The position numbers were made by a program, and so were the translations under genes. Positions 11,641 to 40,745 of a stretch of 64,000 bases of DNA are shown piece after piece. Position 1 is the first letter of the stretch; the number at the start of each line of letters is the position of its first letter. The notes under the pieces were generated by a model that saw nothing but the letters and a program-made list of their open reading frames with translations, did no database searches and was not told the DNA's origin. The stretch covers positions 123,862,464 through 123,926,463 of the forward strand of contig OZ020592.1 of the NCBI GenBank assembly GCA_963971535.1, read 5' to 3'. The DNA comes from Notolepis coatsorum (taxonomy: Eukaryota; Chordata; Actinopteri; Aulopiformes; Paralepididae).

Positions 11641-13995
11641 GTGGTGCCAGGGGAATACCAAGCAGAGGAGGTGCCAGGGGAATACCAAGCAGAGGAGGTG
11701 CCAGGGGAATACCAAGCAGAGGAGGTGCCAGGGGAATACCAAGCAGAGGAGGTGCCAGGGGAATACCAAGCAGAAGAGGAGGAGGTGTCAGGGGAATACC
11801 AAGCAGAGGAGGAGGAGGTGTCAGGGGAATACCAAGCAGAGGACGAGGTGCCAGGGGAATACCAAGCAGAGGAGGATGAGGTGCCAGGGGAATACCAAGC
11901 AGAGGAGGACGAGGTGCCAGGGGAATACCAAGCAGAGGAGGAGGTGCCAGGGGAATACCAAGCAGAGGAGGAGGTGCCAGGGGAATACCAAGCAGAGGAG
12001 GTGCCAGGGGAATACCAAGCAGAGGAGGAGGAGGTATCAGGGGAATACCAAGCAGAGGAGGAGGTGCCAGGGGAATACCAAGCAGAGGACGAGGTGCCAG
12101 GGGAATACCAAGCAGAGGACAAGGTGCCAGGGGAATACCAAGCAGAGGAGGACGAGGTGCCAGGGGAATACCAAGCAGAGGAGGACGAGGTGCCAGGGGA
12201 ATACCAAGCAGAGGAGGAGGATGTGTCAGGGGAATACCAAGCAGAGGAGGAGGAGGTGTCAGGGGAATACCAAGCAGAGGAGGATGATGTGTCAGGGGAA
12301 TACCAAGCAGAGGAGGAGGTGCCAGGGGAATACCAAGCAGAGGAGGATGATGTGTCAGGGGAATACCAAGCAGAGGAGGAGGACGATGTGTCAGGGGAAT
12401 ACCAAGCAGAGGAGGACGAGGTGCCAGGGGAATACCAAGCAGAGGAGGAGGAGGTGCCAGGGGAATACCAAGCAGAGGAGGATGATGTGTCAGGGGAATA
12501 CCAAGCAGAGGAGGAGGAGGTGTCAGGGGAATACCAAGCAGAGGAGGACGAGGTGCCAGGGGAATACCAAGCAGAGGAGGAGGAGGTGCCAGGGGAATAC
12601 CAAGCAGAGGAGGAGGAGGTGCCAGGGGAATACCAAGCAGAGGACGAGGTGCCAGGGGAATACCAAGCAGAGGAGGATGAGGTGCCAGGGGAATACCAAG
12701 CAGAGGAGGTGCCAGGGGAATACCAAGCAGAGGAGGTGTCAGGGGAATACCAAGCAGAGGAGGTGGTGCCAGGGGAATACCAAGCAGAGGACGAGGTGCC
12801 AGGGGAATACCAAGCAGAGGAGGAGGTGCCAGGGGAATACCAAGCAGAGGAGGACGAGGTGCCAGGGGAATACCAAGCAGAGGACGAGGTGCCAGGGGAA
12901 TACCAAGCAGAGGACGAGGTGCCAGGGGAATACCAAGCAGAGGACGAGGTGCCAGGAGAATACCAAGCAGAGGAGGAGTCAGGGGAATACCAAGCAGAGG
13001 AAGATGAGGTGCCAGGGGAATACCAAGCAGAGGAGGAGTCAGGGGAATACCAAGCAGAGGAGGAGCTGTCAGGGGAATACCAAGCAGAGGAGGAGTCAGG
13101 GGAATACCAAGCAGAGGAGGAGGTGCCAGGGGAATACCAAGCAGAGGAGGTGTCAGGGGAATACCAAGCAGAAGAGGACGAGGTGCCAGGGGAATACCAA
13201 GCAGAGGAGGAGTCAGGGGAATACCAAGCAGAGGAGGAGCTGTCAGGGGAATACCAAGCAGAGGAGGACGAGGTGCCAGGGGAATACCAAGCAGAGGAGG
13301 ACGAGGTGTCAGGGGAATACCAAGCAGAGGAGGAGGAGGTGTCAGGGGAATACCAAGCAGAGGAGGAGGAGGTGTCAGGGGAATACCAAGCGGAGGAGGA
13401 CGATGTGTCAGGGGAATACCAAGCAGAGGACGAGGTGCCAGGGGAATACCAAGCAGAGGAGGAGGAGGTGTCAGGGGAATACCAAGCGGAGGAGGACGAT
13501 GTGTCAGGGGAATACCAAGCAGAGGAGGAGGAGGTGCCAGGGGAATACCAAGCAGAGGACGAGGTGTCAGGGGAATACCAAGCAGAGGAGGAGGAGGTGC
13601 CAGGGGAATACCAAGCAGAGGACGAGGTGTCAGGGGAATACCAAGCAGAGGAGGAGGATGTGTCAGGGGAATACCAAGCGGAGGAGGACGATGTGTCAGG
13701 GGAATACCAAGCGGAGGAGGACGAGGTGCCAGGGGAATACCAAGCGGAGGAGGACGATGTGTCAGGGGAATACCAAGCAGAGGAGGAGGAGGTGCCAGGG
13801 GAATACCAAGCAGAGGACGAGGTGTCAGGGGAATACCAAGCAGAGGAGGAGGATGTGTCAGGGGAATACCAAGCGGAGGAGGACGATGTGTCAGGGGAAT
13901 ACCAAGCGGAGGAGGACGAGGTGCCAGGGGAATACCAAGCGGAGGAGGACGAGGTGCCAGGGGAATACCAAGCGGAGGAGGACGATGTGTCAGAG
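11641..13995. repeat. Codon-periodic minisatellite, 24-36 bp units, about 80 copies
   Basis: Units are built on gtgccaggggaataccaagc followed by a variable number of GAG, GAC or GAT triplets. In every unit I checked, length differences are whole triplets, so several frames on both strands stay open for the whole array. Plus-strand frame 1, read from 11587, gives an acidic repeat VPGEYQAEE (819 codons in all). The minus strand gives a proline/leucine-rich frame. The array lies in the oxct1 intron or region downstream of exon 10709-10784 in plus coordinates, that is, between exons 17385-17457 and 10709-10784. No splice sites, promoter or similarity support expression, so I call it a repeat and not a gene. 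Confidence 0.9.
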
Positions 13996-27109: not shown

Positions 27110-27224
27110 CGTACATCCCGTCCTCAAACTCCAGCGCCGCCCGGCGGATGATCCGCTCTCGCACCACGTCAGACGCCTTCTTCGCTTTGGGCTTCTCATT
27201 CGGACCTTTCTGCACCGTGCGCCT
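27110..27224 (-). CDS. oxct1: oxct1 exon (SCOT), second in this window
   Basis: The 115-nt exon encodes RRTVQKGPNEKPKAKKASD, the charged linker between the two SCOT domains. It continues VVRERIIRRAALEFEDGMY, the start of the C-terminal domain. The acceptor is a good pyrimidine tract ending cctccag. The donor is ACG|GTATCC, weak because +4 to +6 do not match consensus. The final G pairs with CT of exon 19785-19879 to give alanine. Confidence 0.95.
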
Positions 27225-28093: not shown

Positions 28094-28275
28094 CACAATT
28101 GGCAGTGTTCGCGGGTGGGAAGCCGGTGGGGTATACGAGTCCTGGTCGTTGCAAACAGCGACTCCTACTGGTCGGAGCAGGGAGGGGATCTGGTGGAGAT
28201 AGTGTGAACCTCTGCACGCGTTACGTTCTCCCAGTGAAACTCCTCACTGGTGACTCCACATGTATCGGAGGAGGC
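28094..28275 (+). mobile_element. SINE family B, truncated, seeds a minisatellite
   Basis: Shares gcaaacagcgactcctactg, gtgactccacatgtatcgga and neighbouring blocks with the SINE at 49391-49861. Neither the tRNA head nor the SINE's 3' end is seen. At the position where the 3' part should follow, the 28260-29357 array begins. Confidence 0.75.
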
Positions 28276-29357
28276 ATGTGGTAGTCTACACCCTCCCCAG
28301 ACTGACAGTAGGGCAGCATGTGGTAGTCTACACCCTCCCCAGACTGACAGTAGGGCAGCATGTGGTAGTCTCCACCGTCCCCAGACAGTAGGGCAGCATG
28401 TGGTAATCTACACCCTCCCCAGACCGACAGTAGGGCAGCATGTGGTAGTCTACACCCTCCCCAGACTGACAGTAGGGCAGCATGTGGTAGTCTACACCCT
28501 CCCCAGACTGACGGTAGGGCAGCATGTGGTAGTCTCCACCCTCCCCAGACAGTAGGGCAGCATGTGGTAGTCTACACCCTCCCCAGACAGTAGGGCAGCA
28601 TGTGGTAGTCTACACCCTCCCCAGACAGTAGGGCAGCATGTGGTAATCTACACCCTCCCCAGACCGACAGTAGGGCAGCATGTGGTAGTCTACACCCTCC
28701 CCAGACTGACAGTAGGGCAGCATGTGGTAGTCTACACCCTCCCCAGACTGACGGTAGGGCAGCATGTGGTAGTCTACACCCTCCCCAGACTGACAGTAGG
28801 GCAGCATGTGGTAGTCTACACACCCTCCCCAGACCAACAGTAGGGCAGCATGTGGTAGTCTACACCCTCACCAGACTGACAGTAGGGCAGCATGTGGTAG
28901 TCTACACCCTCCCCAGACTGACAGTAGGGCAGCATGTGGTAGTCTACACCCTCCCCAGACCGACAGTAGGGCAGCATGTGGTAGTCTACATCCTCCCCAG
29001 ACCAACAGTAGGGCAGCATGTGGTAGTCTACACCCTCCCCAGACAGTAGGGCAGCATGTGGTAGTCTACACCCTCCCCAAACTGACAGTAGGGCAGCATG
29101 TGGTAGTCTACACCCTCACCAGACTGACAGTAGGGCAGCATGTGGTAGTCTACACCCTCCCCAGACAGTAGGGCAGCATGTAGTAGTCTACACCCTCCCC
29201 AGACAGTAGGGCAGCATGTGGTAGTCTACACTCTCCTCAGACCGACAGTAGGGCAGCATGTGGTAGTCTACACTCTCCTCAGACCGACAGTAGGGCAGCA
29301 TGTGGTAGTCTACACCCTCCCCAGACCGACAGTAGGGCAGCATATGGTAGTCTACAC
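28260..29357. repeat. Minisatellite of 36-46 bp units, about 27 copies
   Basis: Units read gcatgtggtagtctacaccc, tccccagac, then an optional tgaca or cgaca and gtagggca. The corresponding SINE sequence at 49700-49755 reads acatgtgatagtatctatca, accctccctagaccgacc, agtggggggcacatg. The unit is therefore the SINE segment between two catg-type words. It is a direct tandem array without unique spacers. Confidence 0.92.
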
Positions 29358-29440
29358 CAGGGGTCAGCAACCTTTTTGACATGGAGATGCCTTCCATGCA
29401 TCGTAATATTTTTTTCTCATAATCAGGTCTTTTTAATGAT
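29358..29440. mobile_element. hAT left end, truncated
   Basis: The terminus caggggtcagcaacctttt is typical of Charlie-type hAT elements. No matching right end is found in the window. Confidence 0.5.
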
Positions 29441-31232: not shown

Positions 31233-31283
31233 ACGTTTTCTACCGTACCTCTATTCTCTCCTCTACCGTACCTCTATTTAGAG
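31233..31283. repeat. Outlying piece of the splice-donor minisatellite
   Basis: Two units of accgtacctctattctctcc type lie here, identical to the array at 36688-40357. They are separated from it by two transposons. Confidence 0.85.
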
Positions 31284-32766
31284 CAGACCTGGGCATTGTA
31301 CGGCCCGCGGGGATGATTCTGACCGGCCCGCGAAAGATTACATGATTTTTTAACTTTTTTCTTTTCATGTCAACGTTCACACGCACAATATACGCTTACC
31401 TAGGATTTGACTTGATTCAACAACAAAGCAGTCGGGGCAAGCCGAGAACGGTGGAAAGTGTGGTTATTTGAAGTTAAGATTTTTTTTTTTCACAACTGAG
31501 GTAGGTAGATTACATTTTTAGAGACTAAAGTACAGAAAAAAGGTACCGTTGGGTACCGGTATCAATTCACAGGTACCGGTACCGTATCGGTTCAAATGTG
31601 AACGGTACCCATCCCTACTGAACACACAACTGCAGGGCAAGGGCATTTTTGCTCATGAAATGCATAGCCATGTGAAAGCCTTCATGACAAAGTTGCAATT
31701 AATTTCAAGGCAACTAGGCAGCAACAATCTCAAACACATGAAAACCCTGAAAGAAGTCAAACCATCAGCTGATCACCGGCACAGGTACTCATCCATGTTG
31801 GGAGCACTGCATGATGAATTTTCAAGGCGTTTTCAAGATTTAAAAAAGGTTGAGGATGAAATGCAGCTGGTTTCCTCTCCCTTTACCTGCAGTGTTGATA
31901 GTGCACCCACTGATGTTCAGCTTGAACTCATTGACCTGCAGTCTGATTCACTACTGAAAGAGCACTTTAAGTCAGCATCACTGCTAGAGTTCTACTCTGA
32001 TCTCAAGGAGGAGAACTTTCCAAACATGAGGAGACATGCTTAGAAGATGTTGGTTCTCTTTGGATCCACCTATATGTGAACAGACATTCTCAGTCATGAC
32101 GTTTACCAAGTCCAGGTACAGATCCTCTCTCACTGATGAACATCTGGCAGCTGTGCTTCGCATCTCCACCTCAGACATGCAACCTGACTTTGATGGACTT
32201 GTTAAAGCTCAACAGAGACTGGATTTATCACACTGAATGAAAAAAAACAAGTGAAATGGGACACTTGATATTTTTTTTTTCTTTTTTTTGCACAGTTCTG
32301 AAAACATTAAATGTTTAATATAGGCATGTAAAGTAAAAAAGGCTACTGGGACACTTTTCTTTACACAGTTCAGTGACATGTCTTGTTTATTTTGGCTATA
32401 AGATGATGTGATGTCTTTAGAAAGCTAAGAAAATCCTTGTTTCAATAGTATATAAAACTCAAAATAATAACTTTATTTGTATAGCACTTTTTCATACATG
32501 CCCTTTGTTAATGTTTCACATTTTGTTTATCATTTTGGAAATAAATTCTATTTGAATAAATGATATTTTTGAAAGCTAACCTCACCTTTTAATTGCCAAA
32601 TAATAACATACACTCTTACCAGGGGTCAAAACAATGCCATTTACTGCTTTTTATATAGAAATAAAGTGTATATTATGCATAATTGAGTTTGGAATTTTGG
32701 CCCGGCCCTCCAACATATTTTCAGTTGCTCATTCGGCCCCCTGGGAAAAATAATTGCCCACCCCTG
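31284..32766 (+). mobile_element. hAT element with transposase remnant
   Basis: Ends cagacctgggcattgtacgg and the reversed right end caggggtgggcaattat are flanked by atttagag at 31276-31283 and 32767-32774. It contains a fragment (about 31390-31620, minus orientation) of the hAT family seen at 9067-10240 and the 3' part of a transposase gene. Cut near the start, it lacks the transposase N-terminus. Confidence 0.92.
31624..32236 (+). pseudogene. hAT transposase C-terminal part (Charlie/GTF2IRD2-like), decayed
   Basis: The encoded residues HEMHSHVKAFMTKLQL, HRYSSMLGALHDEFSRRF, LLEFYSDLKEENFPNMRRHA and then LFGST, CEQTFSVMTFTKSRYRSSL and DEHLAAVLRIS match the C-terminal half of hAT transposases. 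These include the hATC dimerisation region known from domesticated proteins such as GTF2IRD2 and EPM2AIP1. A TAG at 32041-32043 and a one-base shift near 32075 break the frame. The catalytic N-terminal part is absent. Confidence 0.85.
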
Positions 32767-33182
32767 ATTTAGAGCCATATGAAATCCATTTTATTATTTT
32801 CCAAATTCCATAATTTTTTTTCCCAAATTCCGTTTTTTCCGTTTTAATATTTCAGAATTCTGTATTTTGCTTTTTATGCTCATTTTACCATCAGAAATAG
32901 TGTCTAATAAGTGGGAATGAATAAATGTCCACAATTGAATAAGATATAACCATCGTCCATTTAATGTTTTTAAGTGCTGAAACTCAGAAATAGTTACATT
33001 TTACACTATATTTTTCAAATAGTGACAAAATAAAAATGCACACAAAATAAAAATACACATTTCAAGTGTAAACAATAGATACAGCTAGCTACTACTGACA
33101 TTATCACAATGACAATGTCAGTAGCCTAGCTATATCTATTATATTGTGATGAAATATAGTAATGCATAATTTAGGCACCTTT

Positions 33183-33300
33183 AGTTTAGTTTATTTCGTT
33201 TATAAAGGACAGTGTGTACTGACAATCATTTGCATTAAACAAATGGAGGGTGCACCAGATTTAACAAGAAGCTATCATTTCCATCTATAGTCCTATGTTT
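33183..33300 (+). repeat. Direct repeat, copy 1 (copy 2 at 35231-35352)
   Basis: The words gtttatttcgtttataaagg, gacaatcatttgcattaaac and agctatcatttccatctata occur in the same order at 35231-35352. The two copies bracket about 2 kb. Confidence 0.85.
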
Positions 33301-33302
33301 AA

Positions 33303-33444
33303 GCATTACATCACGAGACAGAGTGGGTTATAGAAATTAGATCACGCCTATGGGTGGTTGTTAGGCCCGAGGCGCAGCCGAGGGTCGTTAGACCCCCATA
33401 GGCGTGATCTAATTTCTATAACACACTGTCGTGTGATGTAATGC
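33303..33444. repeat. Foldback palindrome, arms about 50 bp
   Basis: Left arm 33303-33353 (starts gcattacatcacgagacag) and right arm 33395-33444 (ends gtgtgatgtaatgc) are complementary with few mismatches around a 41-bp loop rich in cgaggcgcagccgaggg. It is probably a MITE. Confidence 0.8.
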
Positions 33445-33678
33445 TTTTATACAATGGCCGAATTCATCCAACCTTATTGCTATACAATAAACACACATTA
33501 ATTGAAGATTTATTGACAAAACCACCCGCAGAGAAAGTAGTAAAAAAAAAAGAGAAGTTGCCTCCGTGTGGAAGCAGCTCGGAGGTGCGCTGTTTCAAGG
33601 CAAGAAGTAAGTGAGCGTGTGTTATTGGTTTGATTGATTGATTGAACATTTTATTAATGTTTACCTTGTTTAAAACTG

Positions 33679-34220
33679 GTTAAGAACTGTTAATAATTTC
33701 ATTCTTAGATGCTTCTATAGAAAGTAGGTGCAAAAAAAAAGAAAGAAGTTGAAGATATTTTTTTTTAACCTACTTTCTATAGAAGCAGCTGGGAGGTGCG
33801 CTGTTTTAAGTGAGCGTGGGTTATTGAATTGATTGATTGAAAATTGTATTAATGTCCACCTTGTTTCAAACTGGTTAGACTTAGGCCCTCTTTCGAAGTC
33901 GCCCTCTTTCGAAGTCGGTTATGCTTAGGGTTTGGAATAAGGGCTGGTGGTCTATCGCCCTGCTCTAAAGATAAACTCTAAGCAAAACCGACTTCAAAAG
34001 AGGGCCTAAGCCTAACCAGTTTGAAACAAGGTGGACATTAATAAAATGTTCAATCAATCAATCAATTCAAAAGCCCACGCTCACTTAAAACAGCGCACCT
34101 CCCAGCTGCTTCTATAGAAAGTAGGTTCAAAAAGAAAATTAGCCTCCTATAGGGACGCAACTTCTCATTTATTTTTTTTGCCTACTTTCTATAGAAGCAT
34201 CTAAGAATGAAGTTCTTAAC
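33679..34220. repeat. Large inverted repeat, arms about 240 bp
   Basis: The left arm contains cattcttagatgcttctata, gcagctgggaggtgcgctgt and aaactggttagacttaggcc. The right arm contains the complements in reverse order, ending ctatagaagcatctaagaat near 34208. The centre is near 33960. Nested smaller inverted repeats (ctttctatagaagca) occur within each arm. Confidence 0.85.
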
Positions 34221-34667
34221 ACATTGAGTGCCATGCCCCTTCCGGGAAGTGACCACTTCCGTGCGGCCCATTAACCCCATATAAACATAGTTGTAGTTTG
34301 AAGAACTAAACCTATATTTTATAGTATCGCTATGGGTCTAATAACGCCCTCGAGTCTCATTGAGCTACTTCTGGTCAACGTGCAAATCCGTACATTTCCG
34401 TTTGATACCGTTTTGAATATGAACATAGTCCGGCCGCTTCTGAGCAATTCCAGGGAAAACACACGAAAACAGCGTTTTTGTGTAATTCAATAAACAAACA
34501 CGTTGTCATTTTTCACCTGATTATCGGATCTTCCTGAAATCAACGCTAGATCATCACTATTATCCTTTGTGGTGCACGCATGCAATGTGGTTTAGACCGG
34601 TCTACGTTTCCGGCACTCAGCGATCGGACGACAGAACCGTAGATCTACATGAACGGCACTGAAAGTG
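34220..34667. mobile_element. piggyBac-like non-autonomous element
   Basis: Ends cacattgagtgccatgcc and the reversed right end cactttcagtgccgttc are flanked by TTAA at 34216-34219 and 34668-34671. No transposase is present. Confidence 0.8.
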
Positions 34668-34671
34668 TTAA

Positions 34672-35020
34672 CACTTTGAGTGCCGGCCTCCGTGTCCTAT
34701 TTACCCCGTTGAATGCCACCACTCTATTCAATGACAGAGCACTTGCATTTGTGAACGCATAAACTATATCTTAAATTATGTGTCTAATACGACCGTCGCT
34801 TATCAATGACTTGTTTGCAGTCAACATTGTCTAAATGGATTGTTTTTTTTAATCGGTTCATTCCCGTTTGATGCCATTTTGAAAAACGCTCGTTTTTTGA
34901 AACTTTCAGAAAAAAAAAATATTCTGCAGGAATCGCGCTTTACGCTAGATTATCAATAGTATGTGTACTTATGCACGCTATAGAAGCGGGCTGAAAAATC
35001 TGTCGTTTGAATTAGTCGTT
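34672..35020. mobile_element. piggyBac-like element, right end lost
   Basis: It starts cactttgagtgccggcctcc directly after the TTAA that closes the previous element. Its body (aactatatcttaaattatg, acgctagattatcaatagta, gagaagcgggctg-type words) matches the element at 50368-52582. No right terminus was found. Confidence 0.65.
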
Positions 35021-35508
35021 ATGACGCTTTCAACACATCCATTCGTAAAGATTATTGTCCGCCATCTTGGCTTTTCCTATGAAAAATTCGAACTGGTGGA
35101 GTGATTGTAATTCGGTTGTGGGCGGGTTCTGGGATCACGAGCGTGGGTTATAAAAAATAACCACGTCTAACTTGACTGTTTCAGCCAATCAGAATCGAGA
35201 CATTCGCATGCTATTGTATAAACTGTAACGTTACATAGCTATTTAAGTTTATTTCGTTTATAAAGGACAGTGTGTGTACTGACAATCATTTGCATTAAAC
35301 AAATGGATGGGTGCACCAGATTTAGGAAGAAGCTATCATTTCCATCTATAGTCCACTGTAACGTAAATTTTTTTGCGGGTCCAGTCCACGGTACGTTGAC
35401 AGAATTTGCAAAACACCTTATCGCCGGAGGCATAAAAAGCATTAGGATACAGCTCTGCTCTGAATTTAGGGCTTATTGCGGAATTTCTTAGCTTCTTGAT
35501 GACATTAA

Positions 35509-36460
35509 CACTTTAGTTGCCAAAGGACGAGTTTAGGCGTCCTTCCCCGCCATGCTCAAGTTGCCGATGACGCCGTAACTCGTCTTTGATATCAATATTT
35601 CAAAAATCTGTGATCGGAATCATATTTCCTTTCCGGGGCCCTGAGACACAAGTGTGATCTCCTCTCAATCCTCTAGCGGTTCAAGACCGCCATCTGGTGG
35701 CCGATCGGCAGATAGAAAAAACGGATGTTACCTTTAACCCGGCAGGACTCACTCCATATGTGGTCCGGGCACTCGCTAATGTTAGAGAGACTCAGTCTTC
35801 ACACAGTGAACATCGATCGCTGCAAATAACTCGAAAAAACAACATGATTTGGACGTATATATTATTATACAACCTGGAAATGGACCGGGTATTTCAACAT
35901 CCCATAATGGAAAACTGTCTACCCCACGCTGATCGCCCAACGGCCCGCGGAGACTGGGGTGAGTTTTAGCGTGTAATATTACCGTGTTCGACACTAACTG
36001 CTATGATGAACATTTGACCCACATTAGATGAATGGTAAAACGTTGCCCACGGAATTATAAACGATCCCCCGCCCATCCGGTCAATATCAGATGATACGTA
36101 GAAACTTCTAGAAGTACGTCCAATTGAAATTTTTTATCTTGCACAGATTCCTACCAAACTGTATTTCATCATCAATATAATGTATTTGGGGCTATAAATC
36201 ACGTTCTGGAGAAAGCTGCAGAAAGAGATGAAAACATACTTATACTTTAGATCATATTTTAGTATGAATATGTGAATGAAAAAGTTTAACGTTGCTACAC
36301 CATGAACAATACATATAGGACCTTGAATGGGCCCTAATAATGGCAATCTAGCAATATAATTTAAAAAGTTATAGCCCTGCAAAGAAGGGGAACTTCTCCA
36401 TGTTAAATAGAGCTGGCAACGGATGGTATATCATGAATTTAACCTTAGGCAATCAAAGTG
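35509..36460. mobile_element. piggyBac-like element, about 950 bp, copy 1
   Basis: Ends cactttagttgccaaagg and the reversed right end cactttgattgcc lie between TTAA at 35505-35508 and 36461-36464. The interior (acaacctggaaatggaccgg, gaacaatacatataggacc) matches 45799-46744 throughout. Short open frames are not conserved between the copies, so it is non-coding. Confidence 0.85.
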
Positions 36461-36687
36461 TTAACACCGAAGCAGCCAGATGGCACACACTTGGACACTG
36501 CTGCGTGTTGTGTGTAACCGGGGGTCCTCGGTCAACATTTTCTTTGCACCAAACGTTCCATCTCCTCCCGAAAATGGAATTTCAGTCCAGATTAGACCAA
36601 ATTCTGCAATATTCCACGTTTTGCAGTCGGTTCCATTTTTATTGGTCAATTCCGCGATTCCGTGAACGCGGATTTCATATGGCTCTA

Positions 36688-39600
36688 CCTCTATCCTCTC
36701 CTCTACCGTACCTCTACTCTCTCCTCTACTCTCTCCTCCACCGTACCTCTATTCTCTCCTCTACTCTCTCCTCCACCGTACCTCTACTCTCTCCTCCACC
36801 GTACCTCTATTCTCTCCTCCACCGTACCTCTATTCTCTCCTCTACTCTCTCCTCCACCGTACCTCTACTCTCTCCTCCACCGTACCTCTACTCTCTCCTC
36901 CACCGTACCTCTATTCTCTCCTCCACCGTACCTCTACTCTCTCCTCCACCGTACCTCTATTCTCTCCTAAGGCTGTCCCGGAAGCCTGTTTTTGGGATTC
37001 AAACTTCGTCAGGGTTTTTCGAACTAACCATCGAACCTTCGTTTTTAATAAAAATGTAAAACAAAAATGTAATATTTTTTTCAAAAATCAGTTTTTTTAT
37101 TTTAATTTTTTTTATAAACATCCTCAAACTAAATCCTCAATTTGAATAAAGTGATTCATCTGATTAAATTAGTCTCTTTTTTATTAAATCAACTTTCTTT
37201 AATGAATATAACTCAGCAGTTTTTTTTATACTATAATATTAGTATTAGAAAAACCCCATTGGTTTAAACAGAATATATATATATTTTTTTTTTAATTAAA
37301 AATCTAAAATTCTAATTTTTATTTAGAATTCGAATGCCAACGTAACAAACGAACGTTCGAACATTCGGGCTCAGCCTTATTCTCTTCTCTACCGTACCTC
37401 TACTCTCTTCTCTACCGTACCTCTACTCTCTTCTCTACCGTACCTCTATTCTCTCCTCTACTGTACCTCTATTCTCTCCTCCACCACCTCTATTCTCTCC
37501 TCTAACGTACCTCTACTCTACCGTACCTCTATTCTCTCCTCTACCACCTCTATTCTCTCCTCTACCGTACCTCTACTCTCTTCTCTACCGTACCTCTATT
37601 CTCTCCTCTACTGTACCTCTATTCTCTCCTCCACCACCTCTATTCTCTCCTCTACCGTACCTCTATTCTCTTCTCTACCGTACCTCTATTCTCTCCTCTA
37701 CCGTACCTCTATTCTCTCCTCTACCGTACCTCTATTCTCTCCTCTACCGTACCTCTATTCTCTCCTCCACCACCTCTATTCTCTCCTCCACCACCTCTAT
37801 TCTCTCCTCTACCGTACCTCTATTCTCTCCTCCACCGTACCTCTATTCTCTCCTCCACCGTACCTCTATTCTCTCCTCCACCGTACCTCTATTCTCTCCT
37901 CCACCGTACCTCTATTCTCTCCTCTACCGTACCTCTATTCTCTCCTCCACCGTACCTCTATTCTCTCCTCCACCACCTCTATTCTCTCCTCCACCACCTC
38001 TATTCTCTCCTCTACCGTACCTCTATTCTCTCCTCCACCGTACCTCTATTCTCTCCTCCACCGTACCTCTATTCTCTCCTCCACCGTACCTCTATTCTCT
38101 CCTCCACCGTACCTCTATTCTCTCCTCTACCGTACCTCTATTCTCTCCTCTACCGTACCTCTATTCTCTCCTCTACCGTACCTCTATTCTCTCCTCCACC
38201 ACCTCTATTCTCTCCTCCACCACCTCTATTCTCTCCTCTACCGTACCTCTATTCTCTCCTCCACCGTACCTCTATTCTCTCCTCCACCGTACCTCTATTC
38301 TCTCCTCCACCGTACCTCTATTCTCTCCTCCACCGTACCTCTATTCTCTCCTCTACCGTACCTCTATTCTCTCCTCCACCGTACCTCTATTCTCTCCTCC
38401 ACCACCTCTATTCTCTCCTCCACCACCTCTATTCTCTCCTCTACCGTACCTCTATTCTCTCCTCCACCGTACCTCTATTCTCTCCTCCACCGTACCTCTA
38501 TTCTCTCCTCCACCGTACCTCTATTCTCTCCTCCACCGTACCTCTATTCTCTCCTCTACCGTACCTCTATTCTCTCCTCCACCGTACCTCTATTCTCTCC
38601 TCCACCGTACCTCTATTCTCTCCTCCACCGTACCTCTATTCTCTCCTCCACCGTACCTCTATTCTCTCCTCCACCGTACCTCTATTCTCTCCTCCACCGT
38701 ACCTCTATTCTCTCCTCTACCGTACCTCTATTCTCTACCGTACCTCTATTCTCTCCTCCACCGTACCTCTATTCTCTACCGTACCTCTATTCTCTTCTCT
38801 ACCGTACCTCTATTCTCTCCTCTACCGTACCTCTATTCTCTCCTCCACCGTACCTCTATTCTCTACCGTACCTCTATTCTCTCCTCCACTGTACCTCTAT
38901 TCTCTTCTCTACCGTACCTCTATTCTCTCCTCCACCGTACCTCTATTCTCTCCTCCACCGTACATCTACTCTCTCCTCCACCGTACCTCTACTCTCTCCT
39001 CCACCGTACCTCTATTCTCTCTACCGTACCTCTATTCTCTCCTCCACTGTACCTCTACTCTCTCCTCTACTGTACCTCTATTCTCTCTACCGTACCTCTA
39101 CTCTCTCCTCTACCGTACCTCTACTCTCTCCTCCACCGTACCTCTATTCTCTCTACCGTACCTCTACTCTCTCCTCTACCGTACCTCTACTCTCTCCTCC
39201 ACCGTACCTCTATTCTCTCTACCGTACCTCTACTCTCTTCTCTACCGTACCTCTATTCTCTCCTCTACTGTACCTCTATTCTCTCCTCCACCACCTCTAT
39301 TCTCTCCTCTACCGTACCTCTATTCTCTTCTCTACCGTACCTCTATTCTCTCCTCTACCGTACCTCTATTCTCTCCTCTACCGTACCTCTATTCTCTCCT
39401 CCACCACCTCTATTCTCTCCTCTACCGTACCTCTATTCTCTCCTCCACCGTACCTCTATTCTCTCCTCCACCGTACCTCTATTCTCTCCTCCACCGTACC
39501 TCTATTCTCTCCTCCACCGTACCTCTATTCTCTCCTCTACCGTACCTCTATTCTCTACCGTACCTCTATTCTCTCCTCCACCGTACCTCTATTCTCTACC

Positions 39601-40357
39601 GTACCTCTATTCTCTTCTCTACCGTACCTCTATTCTCTCCTCTACCGTACCTCTATTCTCTCCTCCACCGTACCTCTATTCTCTACCGTACCTCTATTCT
39701 CTCCTCCACTGTACCTCTATTCTCTTCTCTACCGTACCTCTATTCTCTCCTCCACCGTACCTCTATTCTCTCCTCCACCGTACATCTACTCTCTCCTCCA
39801 CCGTACCTCTACTCTCTCCTCCACCGTACCTCTACTCTCTCCTCCACCGTACCTCTACTCTCTCCTCTACCGTACCTCTACTCTCTCCTCCACTGTACCT
39901 CTATTCTCTACCGTACCTCTATTCACTTCTCTACCGTACCTCTATTCTCTCCTCCACTGTACCTCTATTCTCTTCTCTACCGTACCTCTATTCTCTCCTC
40001 CACTGTACCTATATTCTCTTCTCTACCGTACCTCTATTCTCTCCTCTACTGTACCTCTATTCTCTTCTCTACCGTACCTCCATTCTCTCCTCCACCGTAC
40101 CTCTATTCTCTCCTCCACCGTACCTCTATTCTCTCCTCCACCGTACCTCTATTCTCTCCTCCACCGTACCTCTATTCTCTCCTCCACCGTACCTCTATTC
40201 TCTCCTCCACCGTACCTCTATTCTCTCCTCTCCACCGTACCTCTATTCTCTCCTCCACCATACCTCTATTCTCTCCTCCACCGTACCTCTATTCTCTCCT
40301 CCACCGTACCTCTATTCTCTCCTCCACCGTACCTCTATTCTCTCCTCTCCACCGTAC
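36688..40357. repeat. Minisatellite made of the oxct1 exon 5' splice donor
   Basis: Units of mostly 23 bp (also 18, 20, 25 bp) read accgtacctctattctctcc plus tcc on the plus strand. On the transcribed strand this is GAGAATAGAG|GTACGGT, exactly the last bases of exon 40358-40465 followed by its donor. There are roughly 130-150 units, split by a hAT at 36968-37379. Higher-order copies are visible; for example, a block near 38700-38900 recurs near 39540-39760. The array ends seamlessly in the exon. Confidence 0.93.
36968..37379. mobile_element. Short hAT inserted in the minisatellite
   Basis: Ends TAAGGCTGTCCCGGAAGCC and the complement-type GGGCTCAGCCTTA are flanked by ttctctcc (36960-36967) and ttctcttc (from 37380), an 8-bp duplication with one mismatch. 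The interior is AT-rich with ttcgaa-type words and no gene. Confidence 0.8.
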
Positions 40358-40465
40358 CTCTATTCTCTTCTCGAAGCTGGCTCCCTGGACGATCCTGTGG
40401 ACGTAGATGCTGGGGATGTGGATGTCCTCCTCCGCGAAGGTTCCCACGTCCACCACCTCCTCCAC
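40358..40465 (-). CDS. oxct1: oxct1 exon (SCOT), first in this window
   Basis: The 108-nt exon (36 codons, phase 0 at both ends) encodes [19 protein letters not shown], then [17 protein letters not shown], the end of the N-terminal domain of SCOT. The acceptor is ctctctgtgtag. The donor is GAG|GTACGG. The last ten exon bases and the first seven intron bases are the unit of the adjoining minisatellite. The next exon is 13.1 kb away at 27224. If the first array copy were used as donor, 25 nt would be added and the frame would shift. The preceding exon was not found upstream within the window. Confidence 0.95.
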
Positions 40466-40482
40466 CTACACAGAGAGACACA

Positions 40483-40745
40483 CACGGAGAGAGAAGAGGG
40501 AAGATGAGCTCAGCCCGCCCATATGCCGTCTCTCGCAGTAGTAGTCATTGAGACACACAGAGAGACACACACAGCGAGACACACACAGAGAGACACAAAC
40601 GGAGAGAAGAGGGAAGATGAGCTCAGCCTGCCCAGACGCCGTCTCTCGCAGTAGCCATTTCACTGCCGCACTACCAAGCGGTTAACCCTTTCACTGCGAC
40701 AATACACAGAAGGTTAACACTTTGGTAGTGAAAGGGGTAGTCATT
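40483..40745. repeat. Local tandem duplication and TTAA MITE remnant
   Basis: Two copies of a block containing gggaagatgagctcagcc and gccgtctctcgcagtag occur at about 40495-40545 and 40610-40655. From 40682, ttaaccctttcactgcg resembles the MITE at 11267-11401. Confidence 0.6.

Follow-up and report, generated by a model that had tools for sequence, protein, structure and literature searches.

The question raised by the oxct1 gene of the fish Notolepis coatsorum is what more than a hundred copies of one splice donor, standing in tandem behind the exon to which that donor belongs, mean for the gene: a device that shapes its splicing, or a repeat that the gene tolerates. The copies lie in a window of 64,000 nucleotides, the whole stretch of DNA that was analysed, and positions given below are those of the window unless a contig or another locus is named.

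An oxct1 exon that opens a tandem array

The middle exons of oxct1 (SCOT) lie on the window's minus strand. When the fish's own genome was searched with the human SCOT protein, 15 matches emerged, 14 of them in gene order on contig C24 (123.747-124.066 Mb), the leftover match, on C4, being at chance level (E 3.23). No second copy of oxct1 was found in the genome with the human protein as query, at the sensitivity of that search. The exon in question (40358-40465, minus strand; 36 codons, VEEVV...EKRIE) was delimited by protein homology, an AG acceptor (..tgtgtag/GTGGAGGAG, the slash marking the splice junction) and a GT donor (..GAGAAGAGAATAGAG/gtacggtgg), which places the junction GAG/GTACGG between 40358 and 40357. 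The next exon (RRTVQKGPNEKPKAKKASDVVRERIIRRAALEFEDGMY; 27110-27224, minus strand), also recognised by protein homology, follows after an intron of 13,133 nt, and an additional short exon, for residues 351-362, is present in the window as well. When exon 40358-40465 is joined to its successor and to a portion of the exon after that, the translation can be aligned with solved SCOT chains (for example 2nrb) without a gap. The residues EKRIE at its end are shared with the pig and human proteins, and the protein is continuous, with no gap, across the joint EKRIE/R, a position at which human OXCT1 presumably also has an intron. By eye, the pyrimidine-rich intron end before the acceptor occurs twice (40466-40660), the upstream copy lacking an AG.

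Tandem Repeats Finder (TRF) places the start of a 23-bp array within this exon. The main array (37378-40372, minus strand) holds 133.5 copies, among them variant units and multi-unit blocks that are duplicated; with this period and copy number it is a minisatellite, and one whose units carry 5' splice-site sequence and which abuts the exon. A second tract of the same donor array (36686-36968, minus strand; TRF) includes three 35-bp units without the donor. The span of the array is not single, because an interspersed element of 409 bp (36969-37377) splits it; this element has the ends AGGCTG...CAGCCT and at least 49 matches, with 40 of 2,096 first-look candidates scored. Past the second tract, 5.4 kb of intron (31300-36680), consisting partly of interspersed repeats, separates the array from a two-unit island of the 23-bp repeat (approximately 31239-31278, minus strand). 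About 2.4 kb of this 5.4-kb stretch is matched by interspersed repeats at other places, with 99% identity over 960 bp and 94-97% over about 1.4 kb (40 of 26,011 candidates scored); for its middle part, the matches listed comprise only the sequence itself, in inverted orientation and on the same contig. The 960-bp element (35505-36464) is 99% identical to dozens of genome copies among the matches listed, and is probably very young because of this identity.

For the count, a junction was defined as one of the strings TAGAG, TATAG, TAGAT and TGGAG with GTA or GTG directly behind it. By this pattern, the exon and array contain 144 tandem exon-end/GT junctions, real donor included (143 in a slightly shorter slice), and GAG/GTACGG, the end of the exon with its own donor, is the first of them. 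The 9-mer GAGGTACGG is found in 115 of the 144, again with the real donor included, which leaves 114 identical decoys; GAGGTGGTG occurs in 12 and GAGGTACAG in 10, the rest being single or double cases. Of the 142 intervals between junctions, 111 measure 23 nt, and there are 26 different unit strings in the array, one of which contains the insert. The original prediction, that the exon end and its donor form the first unit of an array of 130-150 copies, was right on both points. At least 96 genome places were listed for an exact 17-mer of the array, every one of them in the oxct1 intron, and the window also has 96. A dispersed satellite is thus not seen as far as exact 17-mer copies go, those listed (a lower bound) lying in this intron alone, although diverged copies may occur in other places.

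Origin of the array and its genomic background

Sequence comparison identifies a founder-like stretch of 23 bp (40350-40372, minus strand), made up of the last 15 nt of the exon (GAGAAGAGAATAGAG) and the first 8 nt of the intron. Unit type E, present in 8 copies, consists of GTACGGTA followed by GAGAAGAGAATAGAG; it thus retains the last 15 nt of the exon unchanged and equals the intron start in seven of eight bases, with A in the unit and G in the intron at +8. Of the other 143 junctions, 8 have the entire 15-nt exon tail and a further 109 have 11 nt of it, which makes 117 with at least 11 nt in common. Exon 40358-40465 is most likely the source of the array, because the exon end encodes EKRIE like pig and human SCOT. 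Invasion of the exon by the array was judged unlikely in view of the same conservation, with conversion at silent positions being possible.

Stretches of 20 and of 18 units are repeated identically within the array, the maximum in 200 shuffles being 7, and growth was therefore by blocks; repeated blocks of 18-20 units are typical of minisatellite turnover. The array probably began as a short tandem duplication across the oxct1 exon-intron junction, taking in about 15 nt of exon and 8 nt of intron, which unequal exchange or slippage, as in minisatellites genome-wide, would have expanded to approximately 140 donor copies, and which later insertions would have divided. This is the direction and process of expansion that we infer, and the array would be older than the 409-bp element and the insertions in 31300-36680.

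When the 112 units that measure 23 bp are compared column by column, variation is found in 5 of the 9 donor columns and in 6 of the 14 others, so that there is no clear sparing of the donor. Cells departing from the commonest base make up 16 of 1,008 in the donor and 84 of 1,568 elsewhere, counts that lean towards sparing and that are not independent, copied blocks being counted many times. Another 13 units, outside the set of 112, have lost two bases inside the donor. A donor reservoir under selection thus receives no support from the column counts, whereas the cell counts lean the opposite way.

The frequency of minisatellites in the genome was estimated from twenty 10-kb pieces on seven contigs, taken at round coordinates. 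They contain 28 arrays with a period of at least 10 and at least 5 copies, distributed over 13 of the 20 pieces, and 10 of these arrays have at least 20 copies. Minisatellites occupy 26,782 of the 198,621 bases sampled (13.5%), of which 16,782 lie outside one piece, L039 (C9:30000001-30010000), that is a 27-bp array over its entire 10 kb.

Two other junctions of oxct1, both on C24, are also caught up in repeats. The acceptor of exon 135-196 is present four times, together with approximately the first 19 bases of the exon, in steps of 79 bp (locus L009, 1655-1939), and each of the three upstream decoy acceptors leads to a stop after 8 codons (GTLAERMV or GTLAEMMV). The donor of exon 417-447 is repeated with the exon end at +88 (locus L017, 1407-1573); an extra short donor copy is found in a G-rich stretch between these two copies. 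In all, 3 of 30 oxct1 junction 20-mers (two of the 15 donors and one of the 15 acceptors) have another copy within roughly 1.5 kb. For random 20-mers drawn at these loci, excluding the locus of the array itself, the figure is 342 of 1,857; this control is mostly intron, which can repeat more freely than exon ends. Junctions are not over-represented among recurring 20-mers. The minisatellite share of 13.5%, the other oxct1 junction repeats and these two proportions together mean that junction arrays are expected in this genome without selection, and they leave the special reservoir role that had been suggested for the array unsupported. Such arrays are not everywhere, because none crosses a junction in the 11 exons inspected among 56 matches listed for the Cpn60/TCP-1 family. 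Three of these exons came from two pieces chosen for a long open frame and eight from ranks 3-10, the eight being viewed with flanks of 150 bases only.

Further repeats at oxct1 lie apart from the exons. Another purine-rich 23-bp array (locus L014, 1668-1812; 6.2 copies, GAGAGGTAGGGG units) is located near oxct1 exon 27-66, upstream of an exon that it does not touch, and long minisatellites in the introns at 11643-13993 (33 bp, 75.2 copies) and 28274-29358 (42 bp, 26.5 copies) are clear of the exons found.

We consider it probable that a minisatellite was seeded at the exon end, was expanded by the process that operates genome-wide, and is tolerated by the gene rather than being a built device, the array being nearly neutral or mildly costly. 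In a gene found once, some cost should come with about 140 donor copies at one junction, and their presence may argue for function.

Reading frames, donor strength and donor choice

The consequences of using a decoy depend on which copy is chosen. Copy 2, the first decoy, adds 25 nt and causes a frameshift, a consequence that had been foreseen and that translation bears out. Through the second decoy (copy 3), an in-frame segment of 48 nt, or 16 residues, is added (40310-40357, minus strand; by translation). The predicted site of this insert is between EKRIE and the R of SCOT, which we take to be the linker between the two SCOT domains. The frame remains open through the next exon for two of the 144 donors, the real donor and copy 3 (+48); the 142 others, copy 2 included, encounter a stop codon no later than the end of that exon, and reading through into the array meets a stop after 22 codons.

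Donor strength was scored roughly, with a human matrix, for 14 oxct1 donors, leaving out that of the exon encoding residues 351-362, the donors and acceptors of the other exons being placed by eye against the protein. The real donor scores 7.03 bits and its U1 duplex -7.4 kcal/mol, compared with -14.0 kcal/mol for the consensus. The real donor is ordinary to weak, because it ranks 10th of 14 by both measures, and the same holds for its identical copies. Counting the real donor itself, 131 GTs of the intron reach or exceed its score, of which 117 lie in the array region and 14 in the other 9,463 nt. The expectation that this intron offers over 100 donors equal in sequence strength held, 115 junctions sharing the 9-mer.

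Most transcripts are probably spliced at the real donor, because transcription reaches it before any other copy and it defines where the exon ends. For donor choice and mRNA decay we infer further that occasional use of a downstream donor would produce mostly stop-containing mRNAs, which would be removed, and possibly, through copy 3, a small isoform that stays in frame and gains 16 residues.

A more active part for the nearest copies, in which the first few are routinely used to give several mRNAs, with copy 3 yielding a longer SCOT isoform, is unlikely. It would resemble the human gene IFI6, in which, according to papers citing the original report, two downstream units of the repeat serve as donors. 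An identical 11-base site is present in copies 1-4, and the +48 copy is in frame and open. Solved SCOT chains differ in length from pig SCOT over 106 aligned residues, 1ooz being six residues shorter and 4kgb, 6lp1 and 9xmy 2-3 residues longer, as judged from alignment coordinates only, which do not display where the differences fall; the best-scoring stretch of the 1ooz match stops exactly after EKRIE. Routine use is opposed, however, by the frameshift that comes with copy 2, the decoy nearest the real donor, and by the rank of the real donor's strength, just 10th among the 14.

It is unlikely that amplified junctions recur in the genome and that in oxct1 the donor array also measurably sets the output of the gene, whether through the copy-3 isoform with its extended linker or by trapping U1 and so tuning the removal of the intron. 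If this were true, ketone-body use would vary with array length.

Trapping of U1 in its own right seems improbable. More than 100 copies would compete with the real donor, so that the output of oxct1 would be lowered or regulated by intron retention, or the intron would be shielded from premature polyadenylation. Competition for U1 may occur. In its favour, 117 GTs of the array region equal or surpass the score of the real donor, compared with 14 over the rest of the intron, and both the promotion of intron retention by decoy splice sites and the protection by U1 against premature polyadenylation are described in the literature. Each copy is weak, however, with a duplex energy little more than half that of the consensus, and a reading of the sequence finds no acceptor-like pyrimidine tract in the purine-rich array. 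Recursive splicing through an AG/GT ratchet was rejected on the same reading, the sense strand of the array being purine-rich and without a polypyrimidine tract before AG. An assembly artefact, with the array collapsed, expanded or misplaced, is very improbable: tandem arrays are difficult to assemble, but exon and array are joined without a gap on a contig of 137 Mb, and distinct unit variants in block order, an inner element and a separate island are unlike a simple artefact.

Known donor-bearing repeats and the significance of the array

The human IFI6 minisatellite supplies several splice donors, and two downstream units are used (Turri 1995, as described in papers that cite it). The novelty originally claimed for the oxct1 array is therefore not borne out at the level of the class, which was already known; copy number is the striking part. 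As in IFI6, so far as those citing papers describe it, the oxct1 array is a minisatellite whose units contain splice-donor sequence; several units are reported to be used in IFI6, and the downstream oxct1 copies are candidate donors. The IFI6 minisatellite reportedly has roughly two dozen copies of a 12-nt unit, fewer and shorter than the 144 junctions and the 23-nt unit of oxct1.

Three other systems may be compared with oxct1. Internal tandem repeats at exon-intron boundaries occur in human genes in segmental duplications and can alter splicing (PMC2812944); these average four units of 30 bp, in contrast to more than 140 in oxct1, a gene found once. In the potato RdRp gene, an intron was gained via tandem duplication across an intron-exon boundary (PMC4974935). 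There, as in oxct1, tandem duplication copied a splice junction; in potato the outcome was a new intron. VNTR6-1 of TERT, an intronic 38-bp repeat of tens of copies, influences splicing (PMC11830802); it and the oxct1 array are both intronic minisatellites, but VNTR6-1 is tied to the formation of G-quadruplexes and the oxct1 array consists of copied donors. No case of more than 100 tandem donors was found among the open-licence papers listed in searches for donor-bearing minisatellites and tandem repeats.

The structure is real and striking, and its effect on oxct1 splicing should be easy to test. One exon followed by more than 100 identical donors, mostly in steps of 23 nt, amounts to a natural experiment in 5' splice-site choice, in which counts of junction reads would tell whether position, exon length or transcription order is the deciding factor. 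As oxct1 also has an acceptor array of four copies, both types of splice site are testable in the same gene. The finding suggests that minisatellite-rich genomes keep trapping splice junctions in repeats, and that this is a source of variation in splicing.
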